From NCBI RefSeq assembly GCF_004341445.1, contig NZ_SLXV01000010.1, positions 1-64,000 on the forward strand: a stretch of DNA of 64,000 bases, written 5' to 3'. This stretch comes from Baia soyae. GTDB taxonomy: Bacteria > Bacillota > Bacilli > Thermoactinomycetales > Thermoactinomycetaceae. Under the pieces are notes generated by a model. That model was given only the letters and a program-made list of their open reading frames with translations, was not told where the DNA came from and made no database searches. Made by a program: the position numbers and the translations under genes. Positions 11,298 through 48,765 of this stretch are shown here, in pieces (position 1 is the stretch's first letter; every line of letters begins with the position of its first letter).

Positions 11298-11387
11298 AAC
11301 AAAAAAACAAGCTATTGGGTTATCGAGGGCAGGAGAATCCTAATTTATTTGTTAATCAATAGATCTGATATATGAGTAAATTTATCA

Positions 11388-11604
11388 TGATCAAGCAAAT
11401 GAATATGGAATAGGGGCAATGTGTCAGACCACTGCGATGTTAGTGAGTCTGCTTAGTGTAGTTCTTCGAAGCAAGGGCGTTTTGTGGCAATGTTTGAGCG
11501 TTCTTTGCGAGTTTTGCCACTTGCCCGAAGCTTCGATGGACGAAGCGGACATACCCTACATCTGTGTAGGCTCACTATTTGAGCTGTAGGCTGATACATG
11601 CCCC
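11388..11604 (+). repeat. structured dispersed element, copy A
   Basis: A 217-bp element, about 95% identical to the reverse complement of 48481-48698 over the 104-base core (11428-11531) and less so at its ends. Predicted pairing: outer stem 11413-11427 with 11591-11604, inner stem 11442-11452 with 11566-11576, and a central hairpin GGGC...GTGGCAA (11475-11490) with TTGCCAC..GCCC (11514-11526). Two pairs differ between the copies by compensatory changes (11445:11573 and 11426:11592). No ORF or poly-T end is visible. It fills the 395-bp aroE-nadD gap; 11298-11387 shows nothing clear, and 11618-11651 is a small hairpin. Confidence 0.8.
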
Positions 11605-11692
11605 GAGCCCACTTAATAGCTGATCATTACAGCTTTGATAGTAATTCAGCTTTCGATTAACAAACCCGACACGAACAAACGAGGTGACATCG

Positions 11693-13251: not shown

Positions 13252-13520
13252 TAACTATTTATAGACGAAAGCTATGATAAAGAGTAGTAGTAAGAACGTT
13301 TGTGTCTTTAGAGAATTGGCGGTTGGTGCAAGCCAATATGCAAACCCTTATGAACTCGCTTTATCGCTCTGTAGGTGAACCTTTAGTAGCTTATGGCGTC
13401 TGTCCGCGTTACGGACAATGAAGTGAGGATTGTTTTTGTAATCCTAACTAGGGTGGTACCGCGAGAAGAGAACAAACCTCTCGTCCCTAGCTTAATCAAG
13501 CTAGGGACGAGAGGTTTTTT
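13252..13520 (+). ncRNA. T-box riboswitch, leucine specifier
   Basis: A leader RNA that senses uncharged tRNA-Leu and allows read-through into leuS. Stem I contains AGTAGTAGTAAG and a GGTGCAAGCC distal loop. The specifier region GAACTCGC has the Leu codon CUC at 13355-13357. The T-box AGGGTGGTACCGCG is at 13450-13463. The terminator (13475-13520) is a long CCTCTCGTCCCTAGCTT stem followed by T6. The leader makes up most of the 357-base gap before leuS. Confidence 0.93.
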
Positions 13521-28880: not shown

Positions 28881-31800
28881 ATGAACGAGATATATTATCC
28901 TTTAAGTCATCCGCAGAAGCGGATATGGTACACAGAAGCGATTTATGCAGATAAGGGAATATGCAATCTAAGATTCTTGGTAAGAATGCCCAGCGAAATG
29001 AACTATTTGCTATTGAATCGGGCTATAAACCGAATGATTAGTGAAAATGATAGTTTCGGTATCCGACTCAAAGAAAATAAGCATCAGGAGCCGGAGCAAT
29101 ATTTTGTCAAACATCAAGAAAGGAAATTTGACTTTTTTGACTTCAGTGCTGAAGAGGATTCAACTCGATTAGATCAGTGGTTTGACCAAAAGAGAAACGA
29201 AAAGTTTACGTTATTTGATTCCGATCTATATGATTTCTCCATCATAAAGGCAAGTGAGAATGAATGTATTGTCTATGGTGAAGCGCATCACATCATGATA
29301 GATGGTATATCGATTGAGAAATGTTTAAATCAAATTTCCTGTTTTTACTACTCTTTTCTAAATGGAGAAGATTTTATAATAAATTCTAAAAATTCATATG
29401 TCCAATTTTTAGAGAATGAACAGGCTTACTTGAAGAGCAATCGATTTGAAAAGGATGAGCAATTTTGGCTAGAGGAGTTCGAAACCGTTCCGTCTGTAAC
29501 GGGATTAAAAGAGTATAATCCCTATCTAGTAAGTACGAAAGCATCACGGGAGACGTTTACACTACCAGAAAGCTTGATGAAAAAGATTGATGGATTTTCG
29601 AAAGAACATGATTTTAGTATCTTTACGCTGTTTGTTTCAGCTCTTTCCCTTTCGATGTATCAATGGATGTCATCGCCTGATATTGTTTTAGAAATGTCCT
29701 ATGGGAACCGTACGAATAAGCAAGAGAAAGAGCTTATGGGGATGATGGTGAGTACAGTCCCTTTAAGAATAAGCATGGATCCTAATGAGGAAGTTCTTAC
29801 TTTCATTAGGCGCATATCGAGAAAGCAACGAAAAATATTACGGCATCAGAAATACCCGTTTAATTTATTATCAAAGCATATTAGTCAAAAGAACGGCGGT
29901 AGCAACCGTTTGTGTGGTATCTCAATCGATTATAGAGAAATGGATAATAGTGATGTAACTTGGATCTCTCCGAATGAAGAACCAAATGATTTTGCTATCC
30001 ATTTAGAACGGCTAACGACTTCAGGAATTCTACGTGTGCATGTAGATTACCGGAATGAATTATTTACCAAAGAAGAAATGAATCGCTTTTTTACATCGAT
30101 GTTGAATCAACTGTTAAACACAGTAGAAGGTCCAAGTCGGAAGGTTAAGGAGATAGAGATTCTTTCAGAAGAGGAAAAAGAGAAGATCTTAGTAGGGTTT
30201 AATCATACACAAGTAGATTTCCCATCGGATAAAACCATTCACGAATTCTTTGAACAGCAGGTGGCACGGGATCCCGAAGCGATCGCAGTAGTCTATCAAG
30301 ATCAGAAACTTACTTATCAGGAGCTGAACGAGAAAGCAAACCAGCTGGCTCACTACCTTCAGAAAAAAGGTGTCAAACCTGAGACGTTAGTGGGAATCTG
30401 TGTGGATCGCTCGCTTGAGATGATTATCGGTCTTTTGGGAATTTTAAAAGCCGGAGGGGCATATGTTCCGCTTGATCCCACTTATCCAGATCAGCGACTT
30501 CAATACATAGTAGACGATGCTGGAATTCAGTTACTCGTCACTCAAGAAAGGTTACAGGAAAAAAAGGAGTTATTTAGAAACATTGAATCCATTTGTCTTG
30601 ATCGAGACTATGATGAGATTACACAAGAAGATGTTACACTGCCTTTCTCTGGTGCTCTTGCCAATTCTCTTGCTTATGTGATCTATACTTCAGGCTCAAC
30701 TGGAAATCCAAAGGGTGTTATGGTCGAACATCGACAGTATGTAAACGTGGCATTAGGATGGCGAAAAGAGTTTGCATTGGATCGGATTCCCGTTCGTTTA
30801 TTGCAAATGGCGAGCTTTTCATTTGATGTTTTTGCAGGAGATGTTGCGAAAGCATTGCTAAATGGTGGCGAGTTGATCTTATGCCCTGAAGAAATCCGCT
30901 TTGATCCAACGAAACTCTATCAACTTTGTAGAGAAAATCGGATCACCATTTTGGACTTAACCCCTGCCATGGCCGCTCCTTTTATGGATTATATTTATGA
31001 AAATCAATTTAGTTTACCTGACCTAGAGTTATTTATATTGGGTTCGGATAGTTGTTCTGTAGAGGAGTATAAAAAGCTTTTATCTCGTTTTGGAAATCAA
31101 TTCCGAATTGTCAACTGCTATGGAGTGACAGAGGCGAGTATTGATACAAGTTACTTTGAAGCGTCTAGAGATTTGTTGCCGGATGCAGGGCATGTTCCGA
31201 TCGGGAAGCCATTGCCTAATATGCAAATGTATATTGTGAATCAGCAGTTGCAATTACAACCGATCGGTGTTGCTGGGGAATTATGCATAGGCGGAAGCAG
31301 TGTTGCAAGAGGGTATTACAACCGACGAGAGTTAACAGCTGAGAAGTTTGTTGATAATCCATTTATGCTTGGCGAGCGCCTATATAGAACAGGAGACTTA
31401 GCTCGCTGGTTACCTGATGGGACAGTAGAATTTTTAGGAAGAATGGATCATCAAGTTAAAATTCGTGGATATCGAATCGAGCTAGGTGAGGTTGAATCTG
31501 GATTGGTCCAAACTCCACCTATAAAAGAGGCAGTTGTCATGGCTCGGGACGTTTCAGGTAATCAAAGTGAGTTATGTGCCTATATTGTATCAGAAGAAAG
31601 TTGGTCTAAAGATTCTCTGCGAGATCAGTTATCTAGTTTGTTGCCATCTTACATGATCCCCACACATTTCGTTCAACTGGATCAAATCCCACTAACTCCA
31701 AATGGAAAAGTGGATCGTAAAAATCTTCCTGCGCCTAAGGGAGTTTCAAAAGATGTGCCATTTGAAGCCCCAGAGACCGAAATGGAGAAAACCTTAGCTA

Positions 31801-33425
31801 CCATTTGGAAAGACATTCTGGATGTAGAAAAAGTAGGGAGATTGGATAACTTCTTTGATTTGGGTGGGGATTCCATAAAGGCGATTCAAGTTTCAGCGCG
31901 TCTTCATGCAGTCAAGCTAAAGTTAGAAATGAAATATTTACTTGGTGCCCCACAATTAGCAGAGGCAGCACTACGAATGGTCAGAACAGAAAAACAGAAT
32001 TCACAATCAAAGGTGGAAGGAACTATACCCTTAACGCCAATTCAAAAGTGGTTTTTCAGCCAATCGTTTGTGGATTCCAGCCATTGGAATCAGTCCATGA
32101 TGCTGTATAGTCGGGATGGTTTTGATGAACAAAAAACGAGTCAAGTTTGGACTTCTCTTGTTGAACATCACGATGTCTTACGATCCACCTTTCTCAAAGA
32201 AGCAGAGGGCATGGTTGGCTTTATTCAAGAAGGATTGGAAACAACAACACCATTATTTAATATGACAGTCTTTGATCTAACGAATGATAAAAATCCAAAA
32301 ATGAAGATGGATCATGGAGTAAATGATTTGCAAGCGGGTTTCAATTTGGAAGAGGGCCCCTTAGTTCACCTAGCTTTATTCCGAACAATAGAGGGTGATC
32401 ATTTGTATATGATCATTCATCATCTGGTTGTGGATGGTGTTTCTTGGCGGATTCTTTTAGAAGATTTTGCTACTGGCTATATGCAGTTGACAGAAGGAAA
32501 AAAGATCGAGCTACAACCAAAAACAAGCTCCTATCAAATGTGGGCAAATGGTTTACAAAAATATGCACGAAGTGAACGGATAAAGAAAGAATCATTATAT
32601 TGGGAAAAAATACAAATGACAGAGTCTGTAGAATTGCCAAAATGCAGGAAAGTTCCTGATAGGATGACGCAGGATCTGAACCATATCATGGTTACTCTTC
32701 AGGAAGAAGATACATTACACCTTGTGAAAAAAGCACATCAAGCTCACCAGACAGAATTGAATGATTTGTTACTGACAGCATTGGCATTAACGCTCCAATC
32801 ATGGACAGGCCAATCCAACGTACTCATTGAATTAGAAGGGCATGGTCGAGAGCCAGTTGTAAAAGATTTGGATATTTCTCGTACAGTAGGGTGGTTTACG
32901 ACGACATATCCTGTTTTATTACATGTACCAGGTTCAAATAAATTGGGTGAGACCATAATCAATGTCAAGGAGACGCTCCGTAACGTTCCACATAAAGGAA
33001 TTGGATTTGGTATTTTGAAATATTTAGCACCAGAGGTAGCAGAGTTGCCATTTACCAAACAACCTGAAGTGATCTTCAATTACCTTGGGGAATTTGATAA
33101 ACAGATGGGAGAATGGGAAATGTCATCATTTTCTTCTGAGAATCGAGACATTGGACCAAGGAACCATGAACTGTTCCCTTTAAGTATCAATGGTATTCGC
33201 GTAGGAAACCAGATGAATTTTTATTGGTCGTTTCATCCAGAGGAGTTTGCAGTAGAGACGATACAGGAAATCGCGAATCAGTTTGTTCAGCATTTGAAAC
33301 AAATCGTTCAATACTGTACTTCTGTAGAAGAGACAGAAAAAACTCCATCCGATTATGGATATACAGGGATGAGTGTAGATCGTTTTCGTCAATTACGTCA
33401 AAAGATCCAATTGAAACTAAAATAG
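28881..33425 (+). CDS. NRPS, starter module Cs-A-T-E (predicted D-Orn-like)
   Basis: A 1514-residue nonribosomal peptide synthetase. The N-terminal C domain (1-440) begins YPLSHPQKRIWYTEAIY, very like the lipo-initiating starter C domain of surfactin synthetase SrfAA, with active HHIMIDG at 136-142. The A domain is about 450-930 (core TSGSTGNPKG from 604). Pocket residues read D-V-G-D-I-G-C-I-D(-K), close to the ornithine code DVGEIGSID. The carrier serine is S998 (GGDSIKA). The E domain is about 1035-1480 (HHLVVDG from 1180), so the residue should become D. A basic C-terminal tail probably docks with the next protein. AAGGAG precedes the ATG by 9 bases. I infer that it attaches a fatty acyl group to D-Orn. 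Confidence 0.92.
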   Translation: MNEIYYPLSHPQKRIWYTEAIYADKGICNLRFLVRMPSEMNYLLLNRAINRMISENDSFGIRLKENKHQEPEQYFVKHQERKFDFFDFSAEEDSTRLDQWFDQKRNEKFTLFDSDLYDFSIIKASENECIVYGEAHHIMIDGISIEKCLNQISCFYYSFLNGEDFIINSKNSYVQFLENEQAYLKSNRFEKDEQFWLEEFETVPSVTGLKEYNPYLVSTKASRETFTLPESLMKKIDGFSKEHDFSIFTLFVSALSLSMYQWMSSPDIVLEMSYGNRTNKQEKELMGMMVSTVPLRISMDPNEEVLTFIRRISRKQRKILRHQKYPFNLLSKHISQKNGGSNRLCGISIDYREMDNSDVTWISPNEEPNDFAIHLERLTTSGILRVHVDYRNELFTKEEMNRFFTSMLNQLLNTVEGPSRKVKEIEILSEEEKEKILVGFNHTQVDFPSDKTIHEFFEQQVARDPEAIAVVYQDQKLTYQELNEKANQLAHYLQKKGVKPETLVGICVDRSLEMIIGLLGILKAGGAYVPLDPTYPDQRLQYIVDDAGIQLLVTQERLQEKKELFRNIESICLDRDYDEITQEDVTLPFSGALANSLAYVIYTSGSTGNPKGVMVEHRQYVNVALGWRKEFALDRIPVRLLQMASFSFDVFAGDVAKALLNGGELILCPEEIRFDPTKLYQLCRENRITILDLTPAMAAPFMDYIYENQFSLPDLELFILGSDSCSVEEYKKLLSRFGNQFRIVNCYGVTEASIDTSYFEASRDLLPDAGHVPIGKPLPNMQMYIVNQQLQLQPIGVAGELCIGGSSVARGYYNRRELTAEKFVDNPFMLGERLYRTGDLARWLPDGTVEFLGRMDHQVKIRGYRIELGEVESGLVQTPPIKEAVVMARDVSGNQSELCAYIVSEESWSKDSLRDQLSSLLPSYMIPTHFVQLDQIPLTPNGKVDRKNLPAPKGVSKDVPFEAPETEMEKTLATIWKDILDVEKVGRLDNFFDLGGDSIKAIQVSARLHAVKLKLEMKYLLGAPQLAEAALRMVRTEKQNSQSKVEGTIPLTPIQKWFFSQSFVDSSHWNQSMMLYSRDGFDEQKTSQVWTSLVEHHDVLRSTFLKEAEGMVGFIQEGLETTTPLFNMTVFDLTNDKNPKMKMDHGVNDLQAGFNLEEGPLVHLALFRTIEGDHLYMIIHHLVVDGVSWRILLEDFATGYMQLTEGKKIELQPKTSSYQMWANGLQKYARSERIKKESLYWEKIQMTESVELPKCRKVPDRMTQDLNHIMVTLQEEDTLHLVKKAHQAHQTELNDLLLTALALTLQSWTGQSNVLIELEGHGREPVVKDLDISRTVGWFTTTYPVLLHVPGSNKLGETIINVKETLRNVPHKGIGFGILKYLAPEVAELPFTKQPEVIFNYLGEFDKQMGEWEMSSFSSENRDIGPRNHELFPLSINGIRVGNQMNFYWSFHPEEFAVETIQEIANQFVQHLKQIVQYCTSVEETEKTPSDYGYTGMSVDRFRQLRQKIQLKLK

Positions 33426-33453
33426 TCGTTAGTCAAGTGGAGGAGATATATAT

Positions 33454-36400
33454 ATGGTAGATATTCAGAGTATGTATCCGTTATCACCAATGCAGCAAGG
33501 CATGTATTTTCATGCCTTGCTAGATCCAGAGTCAACTGCCTATTTTGAACAAACCATCTTTACGATCGCGGGTGAGTTTGATGCCAAATGTTTCGCGGAT
33601 AGCTTTCAACAGTTAGTGGATCGTCACGATATTTTACGAACGATTTTTATTCAAGAAGGAACGGAGGAACCGGTTCAGGTTGTTTTACAAGGGCTACAAG
33701 CGCCAGTAGAAATCAAAGACATAACAGGTTTAAGTGAAAAGGAGCAAAATGAATTTCTTAATCAATGGATATATGGAGATCGAAAGAAAGGGTTTAAGCT
33801 CTCAGAGGAATGCTTGACACGTCTCATGATTTTTCAAACCACCCAGGATGAGTATAGAGTGATTTGGAGTTGTCATCATCTCTTAATCGATGGATGGTGT
33901 ACGCCAATCCTGCTTCAAGAATGGCTCGAGATCTATGATGCACAAAGAGAGAATCGGAGTGCGAACCTGTCTTCAACCGTTCCGTACCAATTATACATAG
34001 AGTGGTTGGAACAACAAGATCAAGAAGAATCTCTTGCGTTTTGGAAAAATTCCTTAACCGGATATAACGAACAAGTTGACTTACCTCATCGTTCGAGTTG
34101 GGAGGAAGCAAGCCAATATTCATTTAAAGAAATCATTTTTGATTTAGACGAAGATACTACCAAAAAATTAGATATGTTATCTAAATCTCAACAAGTGACG
34201 TTAAATACAGCATTGCAAGGGATCTGGGGACTTTTATTAGGTAAATACAATCAATCGCAAGATGTGATTTTTGGTAATGTCGTTTCTGGTAGGCCTTCTG
34301 AAATCCCTGGAGTCGAAAATATAGTCGGTTTATTCATTAATACGATTCCCCTACGTGTTCAATGGGAGAAAGAGCAAACTGTTTTAGAGTTTCTTCAGTC
34401 ATTGCAAAAGCATGCAATTCTGTCCCAAGGCTATGAGTACTGTTCACTTGCAGATATTCAAACGCAAAGTGAATTAAAACAAGAGCTAATTCAGCATTTA
34501 TGGGTTTTTGAAAATTACCCAATGGAGGTAGGAGGTAAGTCGATTGCGAATAATCTTACGATCAAGGATATAGTTGCATTTGAAGAAACCAACTATCATT
34601 TAAATTTGATTGTGATGCCTGGCTCGCAATTGCGTATTCACTTTAAGTTTAATGAAAACAAATATGATCCACACATGATTGAACAAGTAAAAAAGCATCT
34701 GCAAACCCTAATACATGCCGTTTTACAAAATCCTGATCAACCCATATCGCAACTTGACTTTTTAACAGAAGCTGACCAAAAACAGCTTCTGGTCGATTTT
34801 AATGCGACAAAAAGCATATTTCCAAAGGATAAAACGATTCCACAATTGTTTGAAGAGCAAGCTGTGCAAACTCCTGATCAGATTGCAGTGGTTTGTAAAG
34901 ATCAAAATGTAACTTTTTATGAGTTGAATCAACAAGCAGAAAAAGTGGCTCATCTTCTAGCTGAAAGAGGAGTTGGAGCGAATCAGATTGTTGGTTTATT
35001 AGTACCTCCTTCGATCGAAATGATGATTGGCTTGGTAGGGATTTTAAAGTCTGGGGGCGCATTTTTACCTATTGATCCGGATACTCCGATGGATCGCATA
35101 GAGTATATGGTTCAGAATAGCGCTGTCAAACAAATTTTAACAATCGCTGATTTTTTTAATCGGGTACCTGATACGGTTGAAAAGATCGATTTACATAAGC
35201 TTTGGTTGGAACCTCCTTCTAATGGGAATGTATGCGCATTAAAAGGAGGAGAATCAACTGATCTTGCCTATGTGATTTATACTTCGGGTACGACAGGTTT
35301 GCCAAAGGGAGTCCAAGTGACTCACCGCAATGTGATTCATTATATAACATCTGTTGTGACTCAAACATCTGTTTCATCCGCTGATAAAAGCATGCTTCTG
35401 TCTTCATATGCTTTTGATTTGGGCTATACCCCTATTTTTCTAACGTTACTTTCTGGTAGTCAACTACATCTTGTTCCAAGAGAAGATTATACGGAACCAG
35501 AAGTTCTTTTGGAATATATAAGGCAATCAAACATTACATTCATCAAGTTAACTCCGTCTTTGTTTAGTATGATGGTTGGAAGTGTTTCGTTTGCTAAAAC
35601 CAATCCGTGTGAAACCATTCGGCAAATTATATTAGGTGGAGAGGAAATTAAATATTCGGATGTCATTTCCTACTTTAAGCAAAATCCGTCTGTTCATATT
35701 ATGGATGAGTATGGTCCCACAGAAACAACGATTGGTTGTATTTCTTCTATGCTCACTCATAATCAGATTCCAAATATGCAAATGCAATCGCTTCCAAACA
35801 TAGGTCGGCCGATTGCTAATACACAAGTGTTTATTTTGAATGAAGATAATGGTCTTCTTCCTATTGGTGTAGCAGGTCAGTTGTGTATTGGCGGTGAAGG
35901 GATCTCGGCAGGCTATCAAAATTTGCCCGAGTTGACTTCTGAGAAGTTTATTGCCAATCCATTTTTGCCAGATGAACGTATCTATAAAACAGGGGATTTA
36001 GCTCGTTGGTTACCGGACGGAACCATCGAATACTTGGGAAGGATAGACAATCAAGTAAAAATCCGCGGATATCGCATCGAACTTGGTGAAATCGAATCAC
36101 AGTTATTACAGATTTCCTTTATAAAAGAGGCCGTCGTCATCGCGAGTACCATGGATGATGGTCATAAGGCACTTTGTGCTTATATTGTATCTGAGCAGGA
36201 GTTGGTTACGTCTGAACTAAAAGCATTATTAGCGAAAACGTTACCGAACTATATGGTTCCGAACTATTTTATCAAGGTAAAGAGTATCCCATTAACAGCA
36301 AATGGGAAAGTGGATAAAAAGTCATTGCCGCATCATGATGTTTTCAATGAGACAGGAGTAGAGTTTGTTGCTCCAAGAACTGAAATTGAAGGTCAGCTTG

Positions 36401-39400
36401 TTCAAATTTGGCAAGATGTATTAGGTGTTAAGAAGATTGGTGTTTATGATGACTTTTTTGAGCTCGGAGGTCATTCTTTGAAAGCTACCATGCTGGTAGC
36501 TAAAGTTCATCAGGTTTTAAATCAAATGATCCCACTACGCTATGTATTTACTTATCCAACCATTGCAGCAATGGCATGTGAGTTGGATCAACTTGAGGAG
36601 AAGGCATTTACAGCGATTTCACCTGTAGAACAAAGTGACCATTATCCGGTATCTTCAGCACAAAAAAGGATTTACCTCGTGCAACAATTGCAAGATACGA
36701 GTATCAGCTACAATATGCCATGGGCCATCAAGATCGAAGGTCCTTTACAAAAGGATCGATTTAAAAAAGCATGGAAAGCTGTGATCGAACGTCATGAAAT
36801 GCTCCGAACCTCTTTTGTGATGGAAAAGGGGGAGATTGTACAACGCATTCACGATCAAGTGCAATTTGAAGTAGAGGAATCGGATTGGAACGGGGCCGGG
36901 ATCGATTCGTGTATGCGTTCTTTTATACGTCCATTCGATCTTGGACAAGCTCCGCTTATACGGGTGGGTCTCATTAACTTGAGCAACAATGGCTATGTCA
37001 TGTTATGCGATATGCATCATATTATTGCAGATGGAGTTTCACTTGAAATTCTGTTAGAAGAATGGATGATCTTTTATACGGAAGGTACTCTACCCGAACA
37101 ACGCATTCAATATAAAGATTTTGCGGCTTGGCAAAATTCATCTTTCCATAGTGAAGAGTATCAAGCTAGGCAGGAATTTTGGTTGAACCAATTCCAAACC
37201 ATCCCGCCGGTATTATCACTGCCGACTGATTATACCCGGCCCGCTGTACAAGGTTTTGGTGGCGATCGCTTCCATCTCACATTAGATTCTGGACTCACTA
37301 AAAAATTATACCGTCTTACCAGAGAAACAGGAACGACATTGTACATGGTTTTGCTTGCCTCGTATCAAGTTTTGCTTCACAAATATACAGGACAAGAAGA
37401 CATCGTCGTAGGAACACCGACTGCAGGTAGGCCACATGCGGAAGTTCAGTCAATGATTGGAATGTTTGTCAATATGTTGGCGATAAGGAACTATCCGGAG
37501 GAGCAAAAAACAATCCGTCACTTTTTGGAAGAGGTTAAACATAACTCCCTCCAAGTCTTTGAAAATCAAGACTACCCGTTTGAACAGCTAGTGGAACAGC
37601 TGGAGGTCCAACGGGAGCTAAGTCGTCACCCATTGTTTGATACCCTAATGGTCTTACAAAATACGGGGAGTAAACAATTGGATTTACCTTCTCTTCACTG
37701 TACACCTTTGGATGTTCCATTCGACATTGCTAAGTTTGATCTAACTCTCGAGATTGCAGAGAATGAGAATGAGATTGGCTGTGATTGGGAGTATAACACT
37801 TCTTTATTTAAACGCGAAACGATTGAACGTATGGCGACACACTGGATAAAAGTGTTACAGCAATTCGTCGAAAATGTAGATCAAGAAATTGGTGATGTGG
37901 AATGTTTATCAGAGGATGAGAAGCACAAGATCCTGGTTGAATGGAATGATACGAAAAGCGACTACCCGTATGAGAAAACGATCCAGCAGCTTTTTGAAGA
38001 ACAGGTAGAAAAAACACCGAATCATATTGCAGTCCAGTTTGGCAATCAAAAAATAAGCTATCTAAAGCTAAATGAGACGGCTAATCGATGGGCACGAATA
38101 TTACGGAAACAAGGTGTAGAAAGAGAGAGTCGAGTAGGTTTAATCATGGATCGTTCTTCTGAAATGATCATCGGAATTCTCTCTATTCTTAAAGCCGGCG
38201 GAAGCTATGTTCCCATGGATCCTAGCTATCCGGAAGATCGAAAGCAGTATATTTTAGAAGACAGCAAAGCCTCACTTCTCATAGTCCAAGATGCTTCTAT
38301 GATCCCGCAAGGGTATGTAGGGGAAGTTCTTGTATTAGCCGAAATAGATCAGATAGATGAAGAGAGTTCAAATCTTGAACCAATCAGTCTAGCTGAAAAT
38401 GTAGCCTATATCGTTTATACATCGGGATCAACAGGAAAACCAAAAGGCATTTTAACCACGCATCGAAATATAGTGAAAACCATTTTAAATAATGGTTATA
38501 TTGACATCCATGAAAGTGATCGCATCTTACAGTTGTCCAACTATGCTTTTGATGGATCGACATTTGATATCTACGGCGCGTTGTTACATGGAGCTGGCTT
38601 AGTATTGGCTTCGAAAGAGGTAGCTACCAATCCGGATGCACTAGCGTCTTTTATTCAGGATGAGAAGATTACGGTCTCCTTTATGACGACTGCTTTATTT
38701 AACACACTTGTAGATCTGAACTCTGTATGCCTCTTAGGTGTTAGAAAGATTCTTTTTGGTGGTGAAAAGGTTTCTGTCAAACATGTGCAAAAGGCACTCA
38801 AGGTTTTAGGTGATGGTCGATTGATCCATGTGTATGGACCTACTGAGACGACTGTTTTTGCCACCTACTATGTTATCAATCAATCTGTGCTTGAAACAGG
38901 AACGGTTCCGATTGGAAAACCATTGAATAATACTCAGGTATACGTTTTGGACCAGAATCATGGTGTCCAACCAATAGGGGTTCCAGGTGAGTTATGTATC
39001 GCAGGAGATGGTGTTGCTAGTGGCTATCTGAATCGCCCGGAACTAACAGCAGCGAGTTTTATTGAAAATCCATTCTCAGAAGGGAAAATGTATCGAACAG
39101 GAGATTTGGTCCGCCTTTTACCTGATGGGAATATTGAATATCTGGAAAGATTGGATCATCAAGTCAAAATTCGTGGATATCGGATTGAGTTAGGAGAAAT
39201 ACAAGAACAATTAATTCAAATTCCGATTGTGAAAGATGCGATTGCGATAGCCACGGAGATGGAAAATAGTCATCATAAAGAGCTCTGTGCCTATATCGTG
39301 GCCAATGAAGAGTTAACAACAGCACAACTAAGGTTTGAATTAGCAAAATCATTACCTAGCTATATGATCCCTAGTTATTTTGTGCAAATGGATTATCTCC

Positions 39401-42400
39401 CCCTAACACCAAATGGGAAAGTGGACCGCAAGGCTTTACCTGCTCCGACAGGGGAAATGAAGTCTGGATACGATTACGTGGCACCTCGAAATTTATTGGA
39501 GGAGATCCTCGTAGATATTTGGCAAGAGGTATTAAAAGTAGATCGAGTGGGTGTGGAGGACGATTTCTTTGAATTAGGAGGCCATTCCCTAAAGGCTACT
39601 CAGTTGGTAGCCCTCATCTATAAAAAGTTAAACGTAAATATTCCCATACACCATATTTTCCAATCTCCTACTATTGATGCATTAGCCAAGGTACTAGAGG
39701 ATATGGAAAAAGGCACATATACATCGATTTCGAGTGTGCAGAAAATGGAGTATTACCCAGTCTCATCTGCTCAAAAAAGAATGTATCTGTTACGAGAGCT
39801 AGAAAAAGAGGCATTAAACTATAATATGCCGTGGGCGTACTTGCTAGAGGGAGTATTCAATACAGAGAAGATGGTGGAAGCGTGGAAAACCGTGGTCAAT
39901 CGACATGAGGCACTACGGACTTCGTTTGGTTTGCACAAAGGGGAAATCGTTCAACTTATCGATGATACGATTTTATTCGAAGTGGAAAGATACGAGGTTG
40001 AAAGTGAAGCGGAAATTCAGGCAACCATTGATCAATTTATACGTCCATTCGACCTGAGTAAGGCACCGCTATTAAGAGTAGGTCTAATCAAGGTTTCGGA
40101 AAACAAACATGTTTTGATGATGGATATGCACCATATTATTTCAGATGGGACTTCTGTGGATATTCTGGTAAGAGAGTTAATAAGTTCTTACTCTTCTCAG
40201 ACATTGGACAAGGTAGGAATTCAGTATAAAGACTATGCGGTATGGCAAAACACGTTCCAACAGAGTGAAGCGTTTAAAGCTCAAGAAACGTACTGGAAAG
40301 AAATATTCCAGACTATGCCGGAGGCGTTGCAACTCCCAACAGATTCCACCCGTCCTGCAGTACCATCATTTGCTGGAGAACATCATAGCTTTATATTGGA
40401 TCCAGAACTCAGCTGTAGGTTAAATCAACTCAGCAAAGAAACAGGAACCTCTTTATATATGTTGTTACTAGCAGCATATAATGTTCTTTTGCATAAATAC
40501 ACGGGTGAATCGGATATCGTTGTGGGCTCCCCGATCGCAGGTAGATCACATCCTGATGTACAGTCTGTTGTCGGCATGTTTGTAAATACCCTTGCTATGC
40601 GAAACCATCCAGAGGGTCATAAGTCGTTTCGAACGTTTTTAAATGAGGTGCGAGAAAGCTCTTTAGGTGCTTTTGATAATCAAGATTATCCGTTTGAAAA
40701 ACTAGTAGAAGGCTTAGATATGACAAGAGATTTAAGCCGTCATCCTTTGTTTGATACCATGTTTCTGGTTCAAAATATGGATTGGACGGAGTTAGAATTA
40801 CCTAATCTACGGATTCATCCGTATGACTTGGAATCCCAAATTGCCAAGCTAGATCTCATGTTAGAGGTAATGGAACAAGGAGAAGAAATCAAATTCCATT
40901 GGGAGTATAGTACAGCCTTGTTTAAACCTGAGACGATCATTCGGATGTCTGAACACTGGAAACACCTGTTACACCAGATCGTGGAGTCTCCTGACCAGCC
41001 TATAGCTGAGTTTCGTATGGTTACAGAGCCAGAAGCGCATCAGTTATTGGTTGAGTTTAATGACACGAGTCAAGATTACCCAGAAGATAAGACTGTTCAT
41101 CAATTATTTGAAGAACAAGTGATGCGGACACCAGACAATGTGGCACTTATCTATAAAGAACAGACTTTGACGTATCAAGATGTGAATGTGCGGGCAAATA
41201 AGTTAGCTAAGAAATTACAAAGTCTGGGTGTTCAGTCTGAAAGTCTCGTTGCCATGATGGTTGAGCGATCACCGGAAATGATGATCGGGATCTTAGCCAT
41301 TTTAAAATCAGGTGGAGCTTATGTTCCAATTGATCCTGATTATCCGGAAGATCGTATTCAATACATGTTACAGGATAGTGGTTCGGATATCCTACTTACT
41401 CAAAGAAAGCTCGTAGCTCTTGTTGATATGCCTCATGTCCTTTGTATAGATGAAGAGGATCGTTACCAGGATGGATATGGCTCAGAGAATTTAGACATAC
41501 ATGTAGATCCGAAGCAATTAGCTTATGTCATTTATACTTCAGGTTCCACAGGAATGCCTAAAGGTGTAATGATTGAACATCAATCGGTTGTCTCCCGTCT
41601 ACATTGGATGCAAACAGAGTATCCATTAACCGAATCGGATGTTGTGTTACAAAAAACCTTGTTTTCATTTGATCTATCCGTTTGGGAGATATTTTCGTGG
41701 TTTATGGGAGGATCTAGTCTTTGTTTACTGCCTACGAAGATGGAAAAAGATCCTGAAATGGTCGTACAAGCGATTGAAAAGTATCGAGTTACCTCCATGT
41801 ACTTTGTCCCATCCATGTTATCTATTATCCTACATCATGTCGATCGCCAGTCACGCAAAGTAGATCTATCCTCCGTGAAGAGAATCTTTACATGTGGCGA
41901 GGTATTAAGTGCTGAACAAGTGAAGATGTTCTATCAAACGTTCCAGTTTGAGCAAACGAAGCTAATCAATATGTATGGTCCAACGGAAGCAACGGTCAAT
42001 GTTACCATCTATGATTGCTATCCAGATAGTGAGCAAACCATGATCCCGATCGGAGTCCCGATTCATAATGCGAAACTATACATTGTGAATGAACATCATC
42101 AACCTCAGCCTGTAGGAGTGATCGGAGAATTGTGCATTGGGGGGATCGGGATTGCTAGAGGATATCACGGTAAACAGGAGTTAACCGATGAAAAGTTTGT
42201 AGCAAATCCATTCTCTAGTGGTGAGAAAATGTATAAAACGGGGGATTTAGCTCGTTATCTATCAGATGGAAATATTGAGTATGTCGGACGGACAGACCAT
42301 CAAGTAAAAGTACGTGGTTTCCGAATTGAGCTAGGCGAGATCGAATCTCAATTATTACAGATTCCAATAGTGAGAGAAGCAGTGGTGATTACTCGCCCCA

Positions 42401-43545
42401 ATGTCCAAGATCAATTAGAACTTTGTGCGTATTTTGTTGCTGAACAAGAGTGCTCAGTATCTGATTTAAGAGCGAAGCTATCTCAAGTGTTGCCTCACTA
42501 TATGGTTCCATCCTACCTTGTACAATTAGAAAACATGCCACTCACGTCAAACGGGAAAGTAGACCGAAAAACGCTACCTGCACCTGAAGGACTGCAAAAG
42601 GCAGCCATGGAGTATATGGCTCCTAGAAATGAGCTTGAGAGGAAATTAGTTGCAATTTGGTCGGATGTTCTGGGTGTCGAACAAATGGGAATTGATGATC
42701 GTTTCTTTGAAATGGGAGGGAACTCACTCAAGATACTAGAAGTAGGATACAGAGTAAACGAGCTTTACCAATCAACACACTTCAGTATCCCACTCAGTTT
42801 CTTTTATGAGAATCAGACGATCCGTAGCATTTGTCATCAATTAAGTGAAATGCTTAATCTCGCTTCGCAACCATCGGTCATGAACTTGTTAAATGCAAAG
42901 GGTCAAAAAAATGTATTTGGCTTTCCACCTGTATTTGGTTATGGAATTGTTTATAAGCCCTTAGCAGAACAAATGGATGGAGAAATGAGTTTGTATGTGG
43001 CAGATTTTATTGAGTCAGATGATCGGATTGAACGCTATGTAGAAAGTATTACCCAGATTCAGCCGTTGGGGACGATTACCTTAATTGGTTATTCAGCAGG
43101 AGGGAATTTGGCCTTTGAAGTAGCGAAAGTATTAGAAGGAAAAGGTCGAGAAGTCTCTCAAGTGATTCTTTTTGATTCGATAAGAAAAGAATCTCATTTG
43201 GAAGGAAAGAAAATTGAAGAGGAGAATATGGAAGACATACGGAGAGTAATCGGAGAAACAACGGATCTGTCTCTGCTTAGTCAAAAGTATAAAGCTTACG
43301 TATCCTACTTTCTATCACTCGTAAACACTGGAAATATTCATGGGGAAATTCATCAAATCTTAGCTGACGTAGATCCTACTAACACGGTGCATGACTTTAC
43401 ATCTTGGTCAACGACGACGGAAAATTATCGATTACATCAAGGACATGGCACTCATTTTGAAATGCTGAGTCACCCTAATGTAGAGAAAAATGCCGTCTTG
43501 TTAAGAGAGATTGTAAAAGAACTTTGTGTACTTGTCGCACATTAA
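33454..43545 (+). CDS. NRPS, three modules C-A-T x3 plus thioesterase
   Basis: A 3363-residue synthetase. C1 follows an E domain (HHLLIDG from 141), A1 core from 610, carrier S1008. C2 (HHIIADG from 1188), A2 core from 1656, carrier S2045. C3 (HHIISDG from 2226), A3 core from 2695, carrier S3091. The thioesterase is about 3120-3363 with nucleophile S3214 (GYSAGG) and HGTHFEM near the end. Pocket residues: A1 D-L-T-K-I-G-E-I-G (Asn-like), A2 D-G-F-F-L-G-V-V-F (Ile-like), A3 D-L-W-Y-F-C-M-V-N (no match known to me). All domains look intact. GGAGGAG precedes the ATG, 28 bases after the first NRPS gene. The predicted product is acyl-D-Orn-Asn-Ile-X, linear or cyclised. Confidence 0.93.
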   Translation: MVDIQSMYPLSPMQQGMYFHALLDPESTAYFEQTIFTIAGEFDAKCFADSFQQLVDRHDILRTIFIQEGTEEPVQVVLQGLQAPVEIKDITGLSEKEQNEFLNQWIYGDRKKGFKLSEECLTRLMIFQTTQDEYRVIWSCHHLLIDGWCTPILLQEWLEIYDAQRENRSANLSSTVPYQLYIEWLEQQDQEESLAFWKNSLTGYNEQVDLPHRSSWEEASQYSFKEIIFDLDEDTTKKLDMLSKSQQVTLNTALQGIWGLLLGKYNQSQDVIFGNVVSGRPSEIPGVENIVGLFINTIPLRVQWEKEQTVLEFLQSLQKHAILSQGYEYCSLADIQTQSELKQELIQHLWVFENYPMEVGGKSIANNLTIKDIVAFEETNYHLNLIVMPGSQLRIHFKFNENKYDPHMIEQVKKHLQTLIHAVLQNPDQPISQLDFLTEADQKQLLVDFNATKSIFPKDKTIPQLFEEQAVQTPDQIAVVCKDQNVTFYELNQQAEKVAHLLAERGVGANQIVGLLVPPSIEMMIGLVGILKSGGAFLPIDPDTPMDRIEYMVQNSAVKQILTIADFFNRVPDTVEKIDLHKLWLEPPSNGNVCALKGGESTDLAYVIYTSGTTGLPKGVQVTHRNVIHYITSVVTQTSVSSADKSMLLSSYAFDLGYTPIFLTLLSGSQLHLVPREDYTEPEVLLEYIRQSNITFIKLTPSLFSMMVGSVSFAKTNPCETIRQIILGGEEIKYSDVISYFKQNPSVHIMDEYGPTETTIGCISSMLTHNQIPNMQMQSLPNIGRPIANTQVFILNEDNGLLPIGVAGQLCIGGEGISAGYQNLPELTSEKFIANPFLPDERIYKTGDLARWLPDGTIEYLGRIDNQVKIRGYRIELGEIESQLLQISFIKEAVVIASTMDDGHKALCAYIVSEQELVTSELKALLAKTLPNYMVPNYFIKVKSIPLTANGKVDKKSLPHHDVFNETGVEFVAPRTEIEGQLVQIWQDVLGVKKIGVYDDFFELGGHSLKATMLVAKVHQVLNQMIPLRYVFTYPTIAAMACELDQLEEKAFTAISPVEQSDHYPVSSAQKRIYLVQQLQDTSISYNMPWAIKIEGPLQKDRFKKAWKAVIERHEMLRTSFVMEKGEIVQRIHDQVQFEVEESDWNGAGIDSCMRSFIRPFDLGQAPLIRVGLINLSNNGYVMLCDMHHIIADGVSLEILLEEWMIFYTEGTLPEQRIQYKDFAAWQNSSFHSEEYQARQEFWLNQFQTIPPVLSLPTDYTRPAVQGFGGDRFHLTLDSGLTKKLYRLTRETGTTLYMVLLASYQVLLHKYTGQEDIVVGTPTAGRPHAEVQSMIGMFVNMLAIRNYPEEQKTIRHFLEEVKHNSLQVFENQDYPFEQLVEQLEVQRELSRHPLFDTLMVLQNTGSKQLDLPSLHCTPLDVPFDIAKFDLTLEIAENENEIGCDWEYNTSLFKRETIERMATHWIKVLQQFVENVDQEIGDVECLSEDEKHKILVEWNDTKSDYPYEKTIQQLFEEQVEKTPNHIAVQFGNQKISYLKLNETANRWARILRKQGVERESRVGLIMDRSSEMIIGILSILKAGGSYVPMDPSYPEDRKQYILEDSKASLLIVQDASMIPQGYVGEVLVLAEIDQIDEESSNLEPISLAENVAYIVYTSGSTGKPKGILTTHRNIVKTILNNGYIDIHESDRILQLSNYAFDGSTFDIYGALLHGAGLVLASKEVATNPDALASFIQDEKITVSFMTTALFNTLVDLNSVCLLGVRKILFGGEKVSVKHVQKALKVLGDGRLIHVYGPTETTVFATYYVINQSVLETGTVPIGKPLNNTQVYVLDQNHGVQPIGVPGELCIAGDGVASGYLNRPELTAASFIENPFSEGKMYRTGDLVRLLPDGNIEYLERLDHQVKIRGYRIELGEIQEQLIQIPIVKDAIAIATEMENSHHKELCAYIVANEELTTAQLRFELAKSLPSYMIPSYFVQMDYLPLTPNGKVDRKALPAPTGEMKSGYDYVAPRNLLEEILVDIWQEVLKVDRVGVEDDFFELGGHSLKATQLVALIYKKLNVNIPIHHIFQSPTIDALAKVLEDMEKGTYTSISSVQKMEYYPVSSAQKRMYLLRELEKEALNYNMPWAYLLEGVFNTEKMVEAWKTVVNRHEALRTSFGLHKGEIVQLIDDTILFEVERYEVESEAEIQATIDQFIRPFDLSKAPLLRVGLIKVSENKHVLMMDMHHIISDGTSVDILVRELISSYSSQTLDKVGIQYKDYAVWQNTFQQSEAFKAQETYWKEIFQTMPEALQLPTDSTRPAVPSFAGEHHSFILDPELSCRLNQLSKETGTSLYMLLLAAYNVLLHKYTGESDIVVGSPIAGRSHPDVQSVVGMFVNTLAMRNHPEGHKSFRTFLNEVRESSLGAFDNQDYPFEKLVEGLDMTRDLSRHPLFDTMFLVQNMDWTELELPNLRIHPYDLESQIAKLDLMLEVMEQGEEIKFHWEYSTALFKPETIIRMSEHWKHLLHQIVESPDQPIAEFRMVTEPEAHQLLVEFNDTSQDYPEDKTVHQLFEEQVMRTPDNVALIYKEQTLTYQDVNVRANKLAKKLQSLGVQSESLVAMMVERSPEMMIGILAILKSGGAYVPIDPDYPEDRIQYMLQDSGSDILLTQRKLVALVDMPHVLCIDEEDRYQDGYGSENLDIHVDPKQLAYVIYTSGSTGMPKGVMIEHQSVVSRLHWMQTEYPLTESDVVLQKTLFSFDLSVWEIFSWFMGGSSLCLLPTKMEKDPEMVVQAIEKYRVTSMYFVPSMLSIILHHVDRQSRKVDLSSVKRIFTCGEVLSAEQVKMFYQTFQFEQTKLINMYGPTEATVNVTIYDCYPDSEQTMIPIGVPIHNAKLYIVNEHHQPQPVGVIGELCIGGIGIARGYHGKQELTDEKFVANPFSSGEKMYKTGDLARYLSDGNIEYVGRTDHQVKVRGFRIELGEIESQLLQIPIVREAVVITRPNVQDQLELCAYFVAEQECSVSDLRAKLSQVLPHYMVPSYLVQLENMPLTSNGKVDRKTLPAPEGLQKAAMEYMAPRNELERKLVAIWSDVLGVEQMGIDDRFFEMGGNSLKILEVGYRVNELYQSTHFSIPLSFFYENQTIRSICHQLSEMLNLASQPSVMNLLNAKGQKNVFGFPPVFGYGIVYKPLAEQMDGEMSLYVADFIESDDRIERYVESITQIQPLGTITLIGYSAGGNLAFEVAKVLEGKGREVSQVILFDSIRKESHLEGKKIEEENMEDIRRVIGETTDLSLLSQKYKAYVSYFLSLVNTGNIHGEIHQILADVDPTNTVHDFTSWSTTTENYRLHQGHGTHFEMLSHPNVEKNAVLLREIVKELCVLVAH

Positions 43546-45527: not shown

Positions 45528-45537
45528 TAATAAAATG

Positions 45538-45772
45538 CGATGAAGAAGAAGAGTATCTAAGGAAGAATTGTGCAGAGAGTTGATGGTCGGTGCAAATCAA
45601 CCAATTCCCTTGGTGAATGGGCTTCTGAGCAGTGCTGTGAACAGGTAACCTCATTAGCAGATAACCGGCGGAATCCGTTATGATTCATTGAGAGCACAAT
45701 GTTTGTTAGTCATGCATTGTGAACTAGGGTGGTACCGCGACAAAAGCTCGTCCCTTTGAGGATGGGCTTTTT
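45538..45772 (+). ncRNA. T-box riboswitch, tryptophan specifier
   Basis: A leader sensing uncharged tRNA-Trp. The Stem I distal loop GGTGCAAATCAA matches that of the leuS leader. The specifier region GAATGGGC places UGG (Trp) at 45618-45620, in the same sequence frame as the leuS specifier. The T-box AGGGTGGTACCGCG is at 45726-45739. The terminator AAGCTCGTCC/GGATGGGCTT with a T5 tail is at 45744-45772. Together with its promoter it accounts for most of the 419-base gap before trpS. Confidence 0.92.
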
Positions 45773-48416: not shown

Positions 48417-48480
48417 GAATGATTGAGAGGAAAGATGAGGGCGGGGGCTACTATTGACTGGATCGGTATTGGATGCACCA

Positions 48481-48698
48481 GGGCAATATATCTGCCCACA
48501 GCTCAAATAGTAAGCCTGCGAGGATGTGAAAAGCAAGTCCGCTCCGTCCTTCTCCGCTTCGGGCAAGTGGCAAAACTCGCAAAGAACGCTCAAACATTGC
48601 CACAAAACGCCCTAGCTACGAAGAACTACGCTAAGCAGGCTTACTAACATCGCAGTGGTCAGATACATTTCCCCTATTCCATCTTCATTTACTGATCA
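48481..48698 (-). repeat. structured dispersed element, copy B (inverted)
   Basis: A 218-bp element, matching 11388-11604 in reverse orientation. Outer arms are 48660-48668 with 48486-48494. Inner arms GCAGGCTTACT (48635-48645) and AGTAAGCCTGC (48509-48519) are perfect complements. The central GTGGCAA/TTGCCAC hairpin is unchanged. It lies in the 403-bp gap between gpr and the AAC(3) gene. The plus-strand frame 48423-48647 reads through it but is not considered coding. Confidence 0.8.
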
Positions 48699-48765
48699 AC
48701 AAATAGAACTTTTGGAAAAAAGATACAGTGCTTGTCTTTCGGGTTTTTCCGATGAGTTATATAAA

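Follow-up and report, generated by a model that had tools for sequence, protein, structure and literature searches.

MITE-like elements with a conserved RNA fold in Baia soyae and related Bacilli, and their likeness to IS1182 elements

The window, i.e. the whole stretch of DNA analysed here, comprises 64,000 nucleotides (positions 1 to 64,000 of contig NZ_SLXV01000010.1 of Baia soyae). It contains two related elements, copy A and copy B, which the first-pass annotation had placed at 11388-11604 (plus strand) and 48481-48698 (minus strand). The pair is real: 187 of 219 aligned columns are identical, the best 104-column window is 95.2% identical, as had been claimed for the core, and the lengths of 217 and 218 bp are practically equal. 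In a blastn search of the own genome with copy A, copy B was matched at E 5.6e-66. The compensatory differences described between the copies can be read from the sequence, with G-C in A and A-T in B at 11445:11573 of the inner stem, and A-T in A and T-A in B at 11426:11592 of the outer stem. The GGGC...GCCC hairpin is the same in both. The earlier limits proved too short, however, as the inverted-repeat ends reach about 11378-11636 and 48451-48706. The statement that no IS-type end is present was wrong: both copies are bounded by inverted-repeat ends, and in relatives the ends and the target habit are IS1182-like (see below). A and B are the sole covariance-model matches within the window. The features are as follows.

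11378..11636 (limits approximate), plus strand: copy A, whole MITE-like element of type 1, outer repeat to outer repeat, from local alignment of both ends
11425..11594, plus strand: copy A, structured RNA core (covariance model R2, whose building set included copy A: 168.4 bits, E 2.9e-40 within the window)
11413..11432, plus strand: closing stem P1 of copy A, 5' side, from sequence, consensus structure and a single fold
11586..11604, plus strand: closing stem P1 of copy A, 3' side, on the same grounds
11475..11526, plus strand: copy A, central hairpin with GGGC/GCCC and GTGGCAA/TTGCCAC, from the sequence and a compensatory change between types 1 and 2
11313..11339, minus strand: remnant of a type 2 outer 3' end beside copy A (similar to the type 2 copies in L034, 95% over 22 bp, and in L037, 85% over 27 bp)
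48451..48706, minus strand: copy B, whole MITE-like element of type 1, from end-to-end alignment of the inverted repeats
48491..48662, minus strand: structured RNA core of copy B (model R2, 192 bits, E 3.6e-46 in the window)

The ends of copy A are worn and its outer limit is uncertain; those of copy B are likewise worn. The ends of copy A are similar to the arrangement CAGG..TGTTGATTA..TAATCAACA..CCTG of better preserved relatives. The remnant at 11313-11339 is probably the vestige of a head-to-head pair with copy A, judging from its similarity and position. The sense strand of 11410-11604 is predicted to fold at -89.2 kcal/mol (z -7.5), and its complement at -69.7 kcal/mol (z -5.5). Elsewhere in the window, T-box leaders were found at 13265-13491 (130.9 bits), upstream of a leucyl-tRNA synthetase gene, and at 45531-45758 (136.7 bits). 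Two reading frames at 28881-43545 are very large, with 1514 and 3363 amino acids; the 1514-aa frame contains nonribosomal peptide synthetase domains (condensation and AMP-binding).

Searched by blastn with copy A, the own genome (G000, 2.9 Mb) gave 46 matches at E ≤ 0.01, and the copies fall into two types. Type 1 comprises 31 own-genome copies that are 77-100% identical. Type 2 is 73-78% identical to A, and 16 copies were found when the own genome was queried with a type 2 sequence. The fold plan is common to both types, the closing stem being GGGGCAATGTATCTGACC in type 1 and GGAGAGTCTGTTCGAT in type 2, and the apical stem GTGGCAA/TTGCCAC and GGTGCAA/TTGCACC, respectively. A covariance model (R1) built from the 31 own type 1 copies gave, at E ≤ 0.01, 61 matches in the own genome and 75 and 16 in the sister species G001 and G002, counts that include fragments and, in at least two cases, antisense echoes of stronger matches. 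By blastn, no match at E ≤ 0.001 was found in the 58 further relatives searched. R1 matches occurred in 13 of 42 genomes of the order, including 51 in G036 and 20 in G039, both from another family. The cross-family model R2 matched 53 of 398 genomes of the class at E ≤ 0.001, representing 25 of the 146 genera sampled; in a fuller search of six R2-positive genomes at E ≤ 1e-4, 13, 29, 27, 41, 56 and 24 matches were obtained. A search for plasmid carriage gave no plasmid match by blastn, and a search of viral sequences with one exact pattern found it in 0 viral contigs. One pattern match in an alphaproteobacterial MAG lies, on reading, inside an EF-G-like coding sequence and looks like chance.

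The core of about 170 nucleotides has a branched fold with conserved internal loops. The loops GCGA..GAGC and CAGCG..GGAGCGGAC recur in many copies and are absent from some, GCGA..GAGC for instance from L275 and L279. Among the 31 own type 1 copies, 97.0% of 1,484 cells fall in standard pairs and 11 of 48 pairs show changes on both sides; none of 500 shuffles reached any of the measures and slid controls paired at 33-48%, the structure having been derived from the same 31 sequences on which it was scored. When type 2 and copies from another family were added (two families, 62 distinct rows), 95.0% of cells were paired, 31 of 48 pairs changed on both sides, and the score was 0.433 against 0.157 for shuffled alignments. 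Class-wide, 39 distinct, hand-chosen rows, of which those from distant families lay outside the training set, gave 90.7% pairing, both-side changes at 41 of 48 pairs and a score of 0.596 against 0.168; the weakest stem in this set was the closing stem (76.5%). The 62-row and 39-row alignments were fitted to the model and only rows matching it were kept, which favours the model, and the shuffles ignore the relatedness of the rows. Pairing maintained through both-side changes thus exceeds shuffled and slid controls, and the statistics show that selection maintains the sense-strand fold of the interior, a conserved structured RNA. The first-pass annotation had taken many copies with covariation as the support to look for, and both are present, with 61 own-genome matches and covariation beyond the shuffles. 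It had also suspected a fold under selection, belonging either to a small RNA family or to a mobile structured repeat; selection is well supported, and the two alternatives hold together. Its remark that no named RNA family is recognisable stands for Rfam 15, in which no family came near its gathering score for copy A or for the copies of other families.

Which strand folds can be told from the kind of mispairing, because the opposite strand would turn each G-U into A-C. Departures from Watson-Crick pairing in the 31 type 1 copies are G-U in 68 cases and A-C in 8 (pairs with a G-U consensus omitted), and changes private to one copy are 14 and 3, respectively (p 0.013), so that the folded strand is the sense strand. 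The bias is weak in type 2 (19 G-U and 6 A-C overall; 11 and 4 private, p 0.12), and private changes in a mixed-genome type 1 set number 16 and 7 (p 0.09). Predicted RNA energies favour the sense strand in 58 of the 62 distinct rows from the window's order; class-wide they do so in 24 of 39 rows (p 0.07), which is no clear asymmetry. With DNA parameters the sense strand is likewise favoured, for 25 of the 31 type 1 copies and 25 of the 39 rows of the class set.

Many copies lie between the same genes in the sister species. Twenty-five matched sites of G000 and G001 were entered, at loci chosen for holding copies; type and orientation agree in 19 of them and not in 6. In the set of 22 same-site element pairs, the flanking genes are 91.6% identical in protein and 29.4% of their fourfold sites differ (1524/5176). 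The elements themselves differ at 9.3% of paired sites (193/2081) and 13.8% of unpaired sites (222/1607), and so evolve two to three times more slowly than fourfold-degenerate sites. Changes that keep a wobble pair outnumber A-C changes by 60 to 19 (p 4e-6) in this set, which omits one spurious row and four G002 rows; all 27 rows give 74 and 23. Eighteen double changes led from one Watson-Crick pair to another; against this, 39 single changes broke a pair otherwise and 9 double changes left a side unpaired. The slow evolution of resident copies, together with the preference for G-U over A-C, points to selection on the fold in place, including in copies fixed at one site since the species split. 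The partner is the closest own-genome copy (of about 44) in only 12 of the 22 pairs. The bias persists when closest-copy pairs alone are taken (28 to 12, p 0.017), and also when 14 pairs are kept (37 to 13, p 0.0009).

These data bear on the reading that the elements are dead palindromic MITEs, whose fold is a by-product of inverted repeats and whose compensation arises, instead of by selection, through gene conversion or through quasipalindrome correction templated by the hairpin. In favour of this reading, the family has inverted-repeat ends and, in relatives, target duplications, degenerate or deleted copies occur (e.g. type 1 in L040 and L042), and in 10 of the 22 same-site pairs the partners are not the closest copies. 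Correction, however, predicts perfect palindromes and equality of the strands, in contrast to the 68 G-U and 8 A-C departures of type 1 and to the asymmetric internal loops that persist in many copies, and resident copies evolve more slowly than fourfold sites. The mean distance of same-site copies (0.113) is lower than that of same-type paralogs (0.193), which argues against wholesale gene conversion; local conversion remains compatible with it. Dead palindromes are therefore judged an improbable account.

The ends of this MITE family, whose members measure about 255-265 bp and have terminal inverted repeats, are better preserved in relatives. In G039, CAGGGCTGTTGATTAACCA..TGGTTAATCAACACGCCTG marks the two ends of copies some 260 bp long, and this end pattern occurs 75 times at up to two mismatches (0 times in a backward control). 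Both ends were resolved in 13 of 16 copies from G039, G038 and G041, and exact repeats of 9 bp flank 5 of these 13; a further 9-bp repeat was seen by eye at L187. In a wider G039 set, which takes in elements with extra hairpins and elements that lack the core, an exact 9-bp repeat flanks 5 of 18 end pairs. The same ends also bound modular MITEs of 94-364 bp in G039 (L211-L228), some with extra hairpins in the loops of the core and some lacking the core. The duplications in G039 and G038 are of 9 bp and are not hairpins. The idea that the termini of different genera are unrelated was dropped, since by eye they resemble diverged forms of one inverted repeat.

A different target habit was observed in G262 and G230, two genomes outside the window's family. 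Of 27 copies examined there, 3 lacked the core pattern, 5 had unresolved ends and 19 had both ends resolved. Exact flanking repeats of 20-30 bp, counted at the ends or within 5 bp of them, accompany 12 of these 19, and the remaining 7 have shorter exact repeats of 7-15 bp. The repeats vary from copy to copy. Twenty repeats of at least 20 bp (12 at MITEs, 8 at the IS elements described below) were folded and all are hairpins, 18 beating all of 300 shuffles and the other two at least 96% of them. From our own reading of their A- and T-runs, the duplicated hairpins read as intrinsic terminators.

Other sites with these ends were read in 20 stretches, 14 from G230 and 6 from G262. G230 contains 13 such end pairs of 1.53-2.76 kb, the commonest length being 1,545 bp, and repeats of 20-31 bp flank 8 of the 13 longer elements. 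Two frames were scanned in G230 (L320 and L324); both are open and encode transposases of the IS1182 family (NF033551, E 2.5e-147 and 2.4e-143) with the domains PF13751, PF05598 and PF01609. The right end of the G230 MITE, CTTTGTCTACAGGCTG, is identical over 16 bp to that of the IS1182 elements, and the left ends are alike (TTGCGTGTAGACAAAA in the MITE, CAGATTGCAGACAAAC in the IS). Terminal repeats of IS1182 type thus occur in the same genome as the MITE, and MITE and IS agree in the choice and duplication of the target, as seen at 12 of 19 resolved MITE copies in G262 and G230 and at 8 of 13 end pairs of the IS in G230. In G262, three end pairs of 74, 306 and 942 bp have no flanking repeat. 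Since the IS1182 elements of G230 share end sequence and target habit with the MITE, they are its likely movers. The MITE, and with it the forebears of A and B, would have been mobilised in trans by an IS1182 transposase.

The transposase itself was sought in six genomes, and the curated cut-off was passed in one of the six only, G002, by a match carrying two stops. The own genome has only a fragment, and no intact IS was found there with which the ends could be compared. G001 has no match, and the own genome and G262 have partial matches only; MITE duplications are nevertheless present in G262. Both matches in G039 lie at one place, with no matching ends nearby, and a mover for the 9-bp type was not found. 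Because the own genome's transposase is a fragment and copies are shared at matching sites of the sister species, movement in the window's genus seems to be over.

According to the available text of PMC4923244, IS1272 of staphylococci, a member of the same family as IS1182, takes terminator hairpins as its targets, and a preference for palindromic targets is claimed for some IS1182 members. The end identity in G230 and the duplicated hairpins at both MITE and IS1182 elements fit this company, while the MITE differs in having no transposase gene. A further difference concerns the target, as here the whole hairpin is duplicated whereas for IS1272 partial loss of the stem-loop, with no duplication, has been reported (PMC4923244; PMC5678879, as far as the text of both was available).

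The copies are oriented at random to neighbouring genes. With a simple ORF caller, the downstream frame of the 31 type 1 copies lies on the same strand in 15 cases and on the opposite strand in 16. This orientation count refutes a cis-regulatory leader or riboswitch of downstream genes as the general role, even though some copies stand directly upstream of a likely start codon, and we consider such a role very improbable. Better preservation of copies in sense with the upstream gene was looked for, and model scores did not differ with that gene's direction (p 0.25). Random gene orientation and an orientation-independent score argue against a simple 3'-UTR role as well.

In G000, G001 and G002, 142 of 152 matches were entered and 27 pairs have less than 800 bp between starts, of which 26 are head-to-head (5' ends facing), 1 is tandem and 0 are tail-to-tail. 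One partner of such pairs is frequently degenerate. Copy A and the adjacent type 2 end remnant fit the head-to-head arrangement. Outside the genus, among the matches listed (150 of 190 in six genomes), 13 of 16 close neighbours are tandem (G238, G081, G134) and 3 are head-to-head; G134 has two additional head-to-head cases (L276 and L287). In L316 of G238 a unit of about 519 bp is repeated four times in tandem; every unit holds one RNA core and, by eye, a second long palindrome. These arrangements are relevant to the proposal of a trans-acting small-RNA gene family within mobile ends, each copy being its own transcription unit. Such genes would accord with a complex fold conserved class-wide and with a score independent of the direction of neighbouring genes, and head-to-head placement in 26 of 27 genus pairs is expected if divergent promoters lie in the gap. 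A simple score for sigma-70-like promoters, however, fell below that of shuffled sequence on all four flank sets, which rules against an own promoter and leaves the flanks with no promoter-like enrichment; the 31 aligned copies have no U-run at the 3' end, and the neighbours outside the genus are mostly tandem. Independent small-RNA genes seem unlikely.

The fold might instead matter as single-stranded DNA of one strand, in transposition or replication. IS1182 relatives pick hairpin targets, the sense strand is also the more stable one with DNA parameters (the 25 of 31 given above), and in G238 37 of the 40 copies listed are oriented against the replichore (27 of 29 once arrays are collapsed), if the origin is assumed at position 1 and the terminus opposite. 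G262 has no such bias, with 14 copies in either direction, and mobility alone leaves the constraint on copies that no longer move unexplained. A DNA-strand role is accordingly considered rather unlikely. A transcribed fold, rather than a mere DNA palindrome, is favoured as the acting form, since the bias is strand-specific and resident copies are constrained.

In the reading that we hold to be probable, A and B have long been resident and belong to a MITE family with IS1182-like ends, the interior of which is a selected RNA fold. An IS1182 transposase supplied in trans would have mobilised the MITE, including the ancestors of A and B, with insertion at terminator-like hairpins and duplication of the hairpin, as observed in G262 and G230. 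The predicted RNA would then work as a folded module once transcribed, most likely through read-through from neighbours. The likelihoods attached here to the several readings overlap and do not add up to one.

Small bacterial MITEs with stable RNA folds are already known, namely NEMIS/Correia, ERIC/RU-1, CIR and RUP, and NEMIS RNA has been proposed to affect neighbouring mRNAs through RNase III (PMC2229807, in the text available). Compared by description only, and as far as that text goes, the present elements share with these a small size, a mostly intergenic position, inverted-repeat ends and transcripts predicted to form stable stem-loops, and differ in the branched fold, the conserved internal loops, the class-wide covariation and the measured constraint in place. 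A literature search found no report of this MITE/RNA family, with subscription papers only partly covered, and no paper devoted to bcr1. The latter, from the Bacillus cereus group (also Bacilli), is a mobile repeat that occurs in many copies and has a conserved RNA fold, and by description the present family is alike as a mobile multi-copy RNA-fold repeat. HEARO/omega RNA and similar RNAs of mobile elements are also structured RNAs carried by a mobile element; the present family resembles them in this respect, and came near the gathering score of no Rfam family.

A MITE with an RNA fold is therefore rated as a known kind of element, to which the present family adds a variant. It adds a strongly covarying structured RNA that is unmatched in Rfam 15, found in 25 of 146 genera and with up to 75 matches per genome, and it gives clear cases of insertions that duplicate their target hairpin. 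A bolder reading, possible though doubtful, is that the RNA is functional throughout the class, is kept because it benefits the host or itself, and exploits IS1182 transposases by which tens of copies are scattered into transcription terminators. If that were true, the elements would form an RNA gene family with dispersed members, frequently arranged as head-to-head pairs or tandem arrays, and not a decaying transposon remnant. As resident copies still seem to evolve as RNA, the family allows a concrete test of whether functional RNAs arise from bacterial MITEs.
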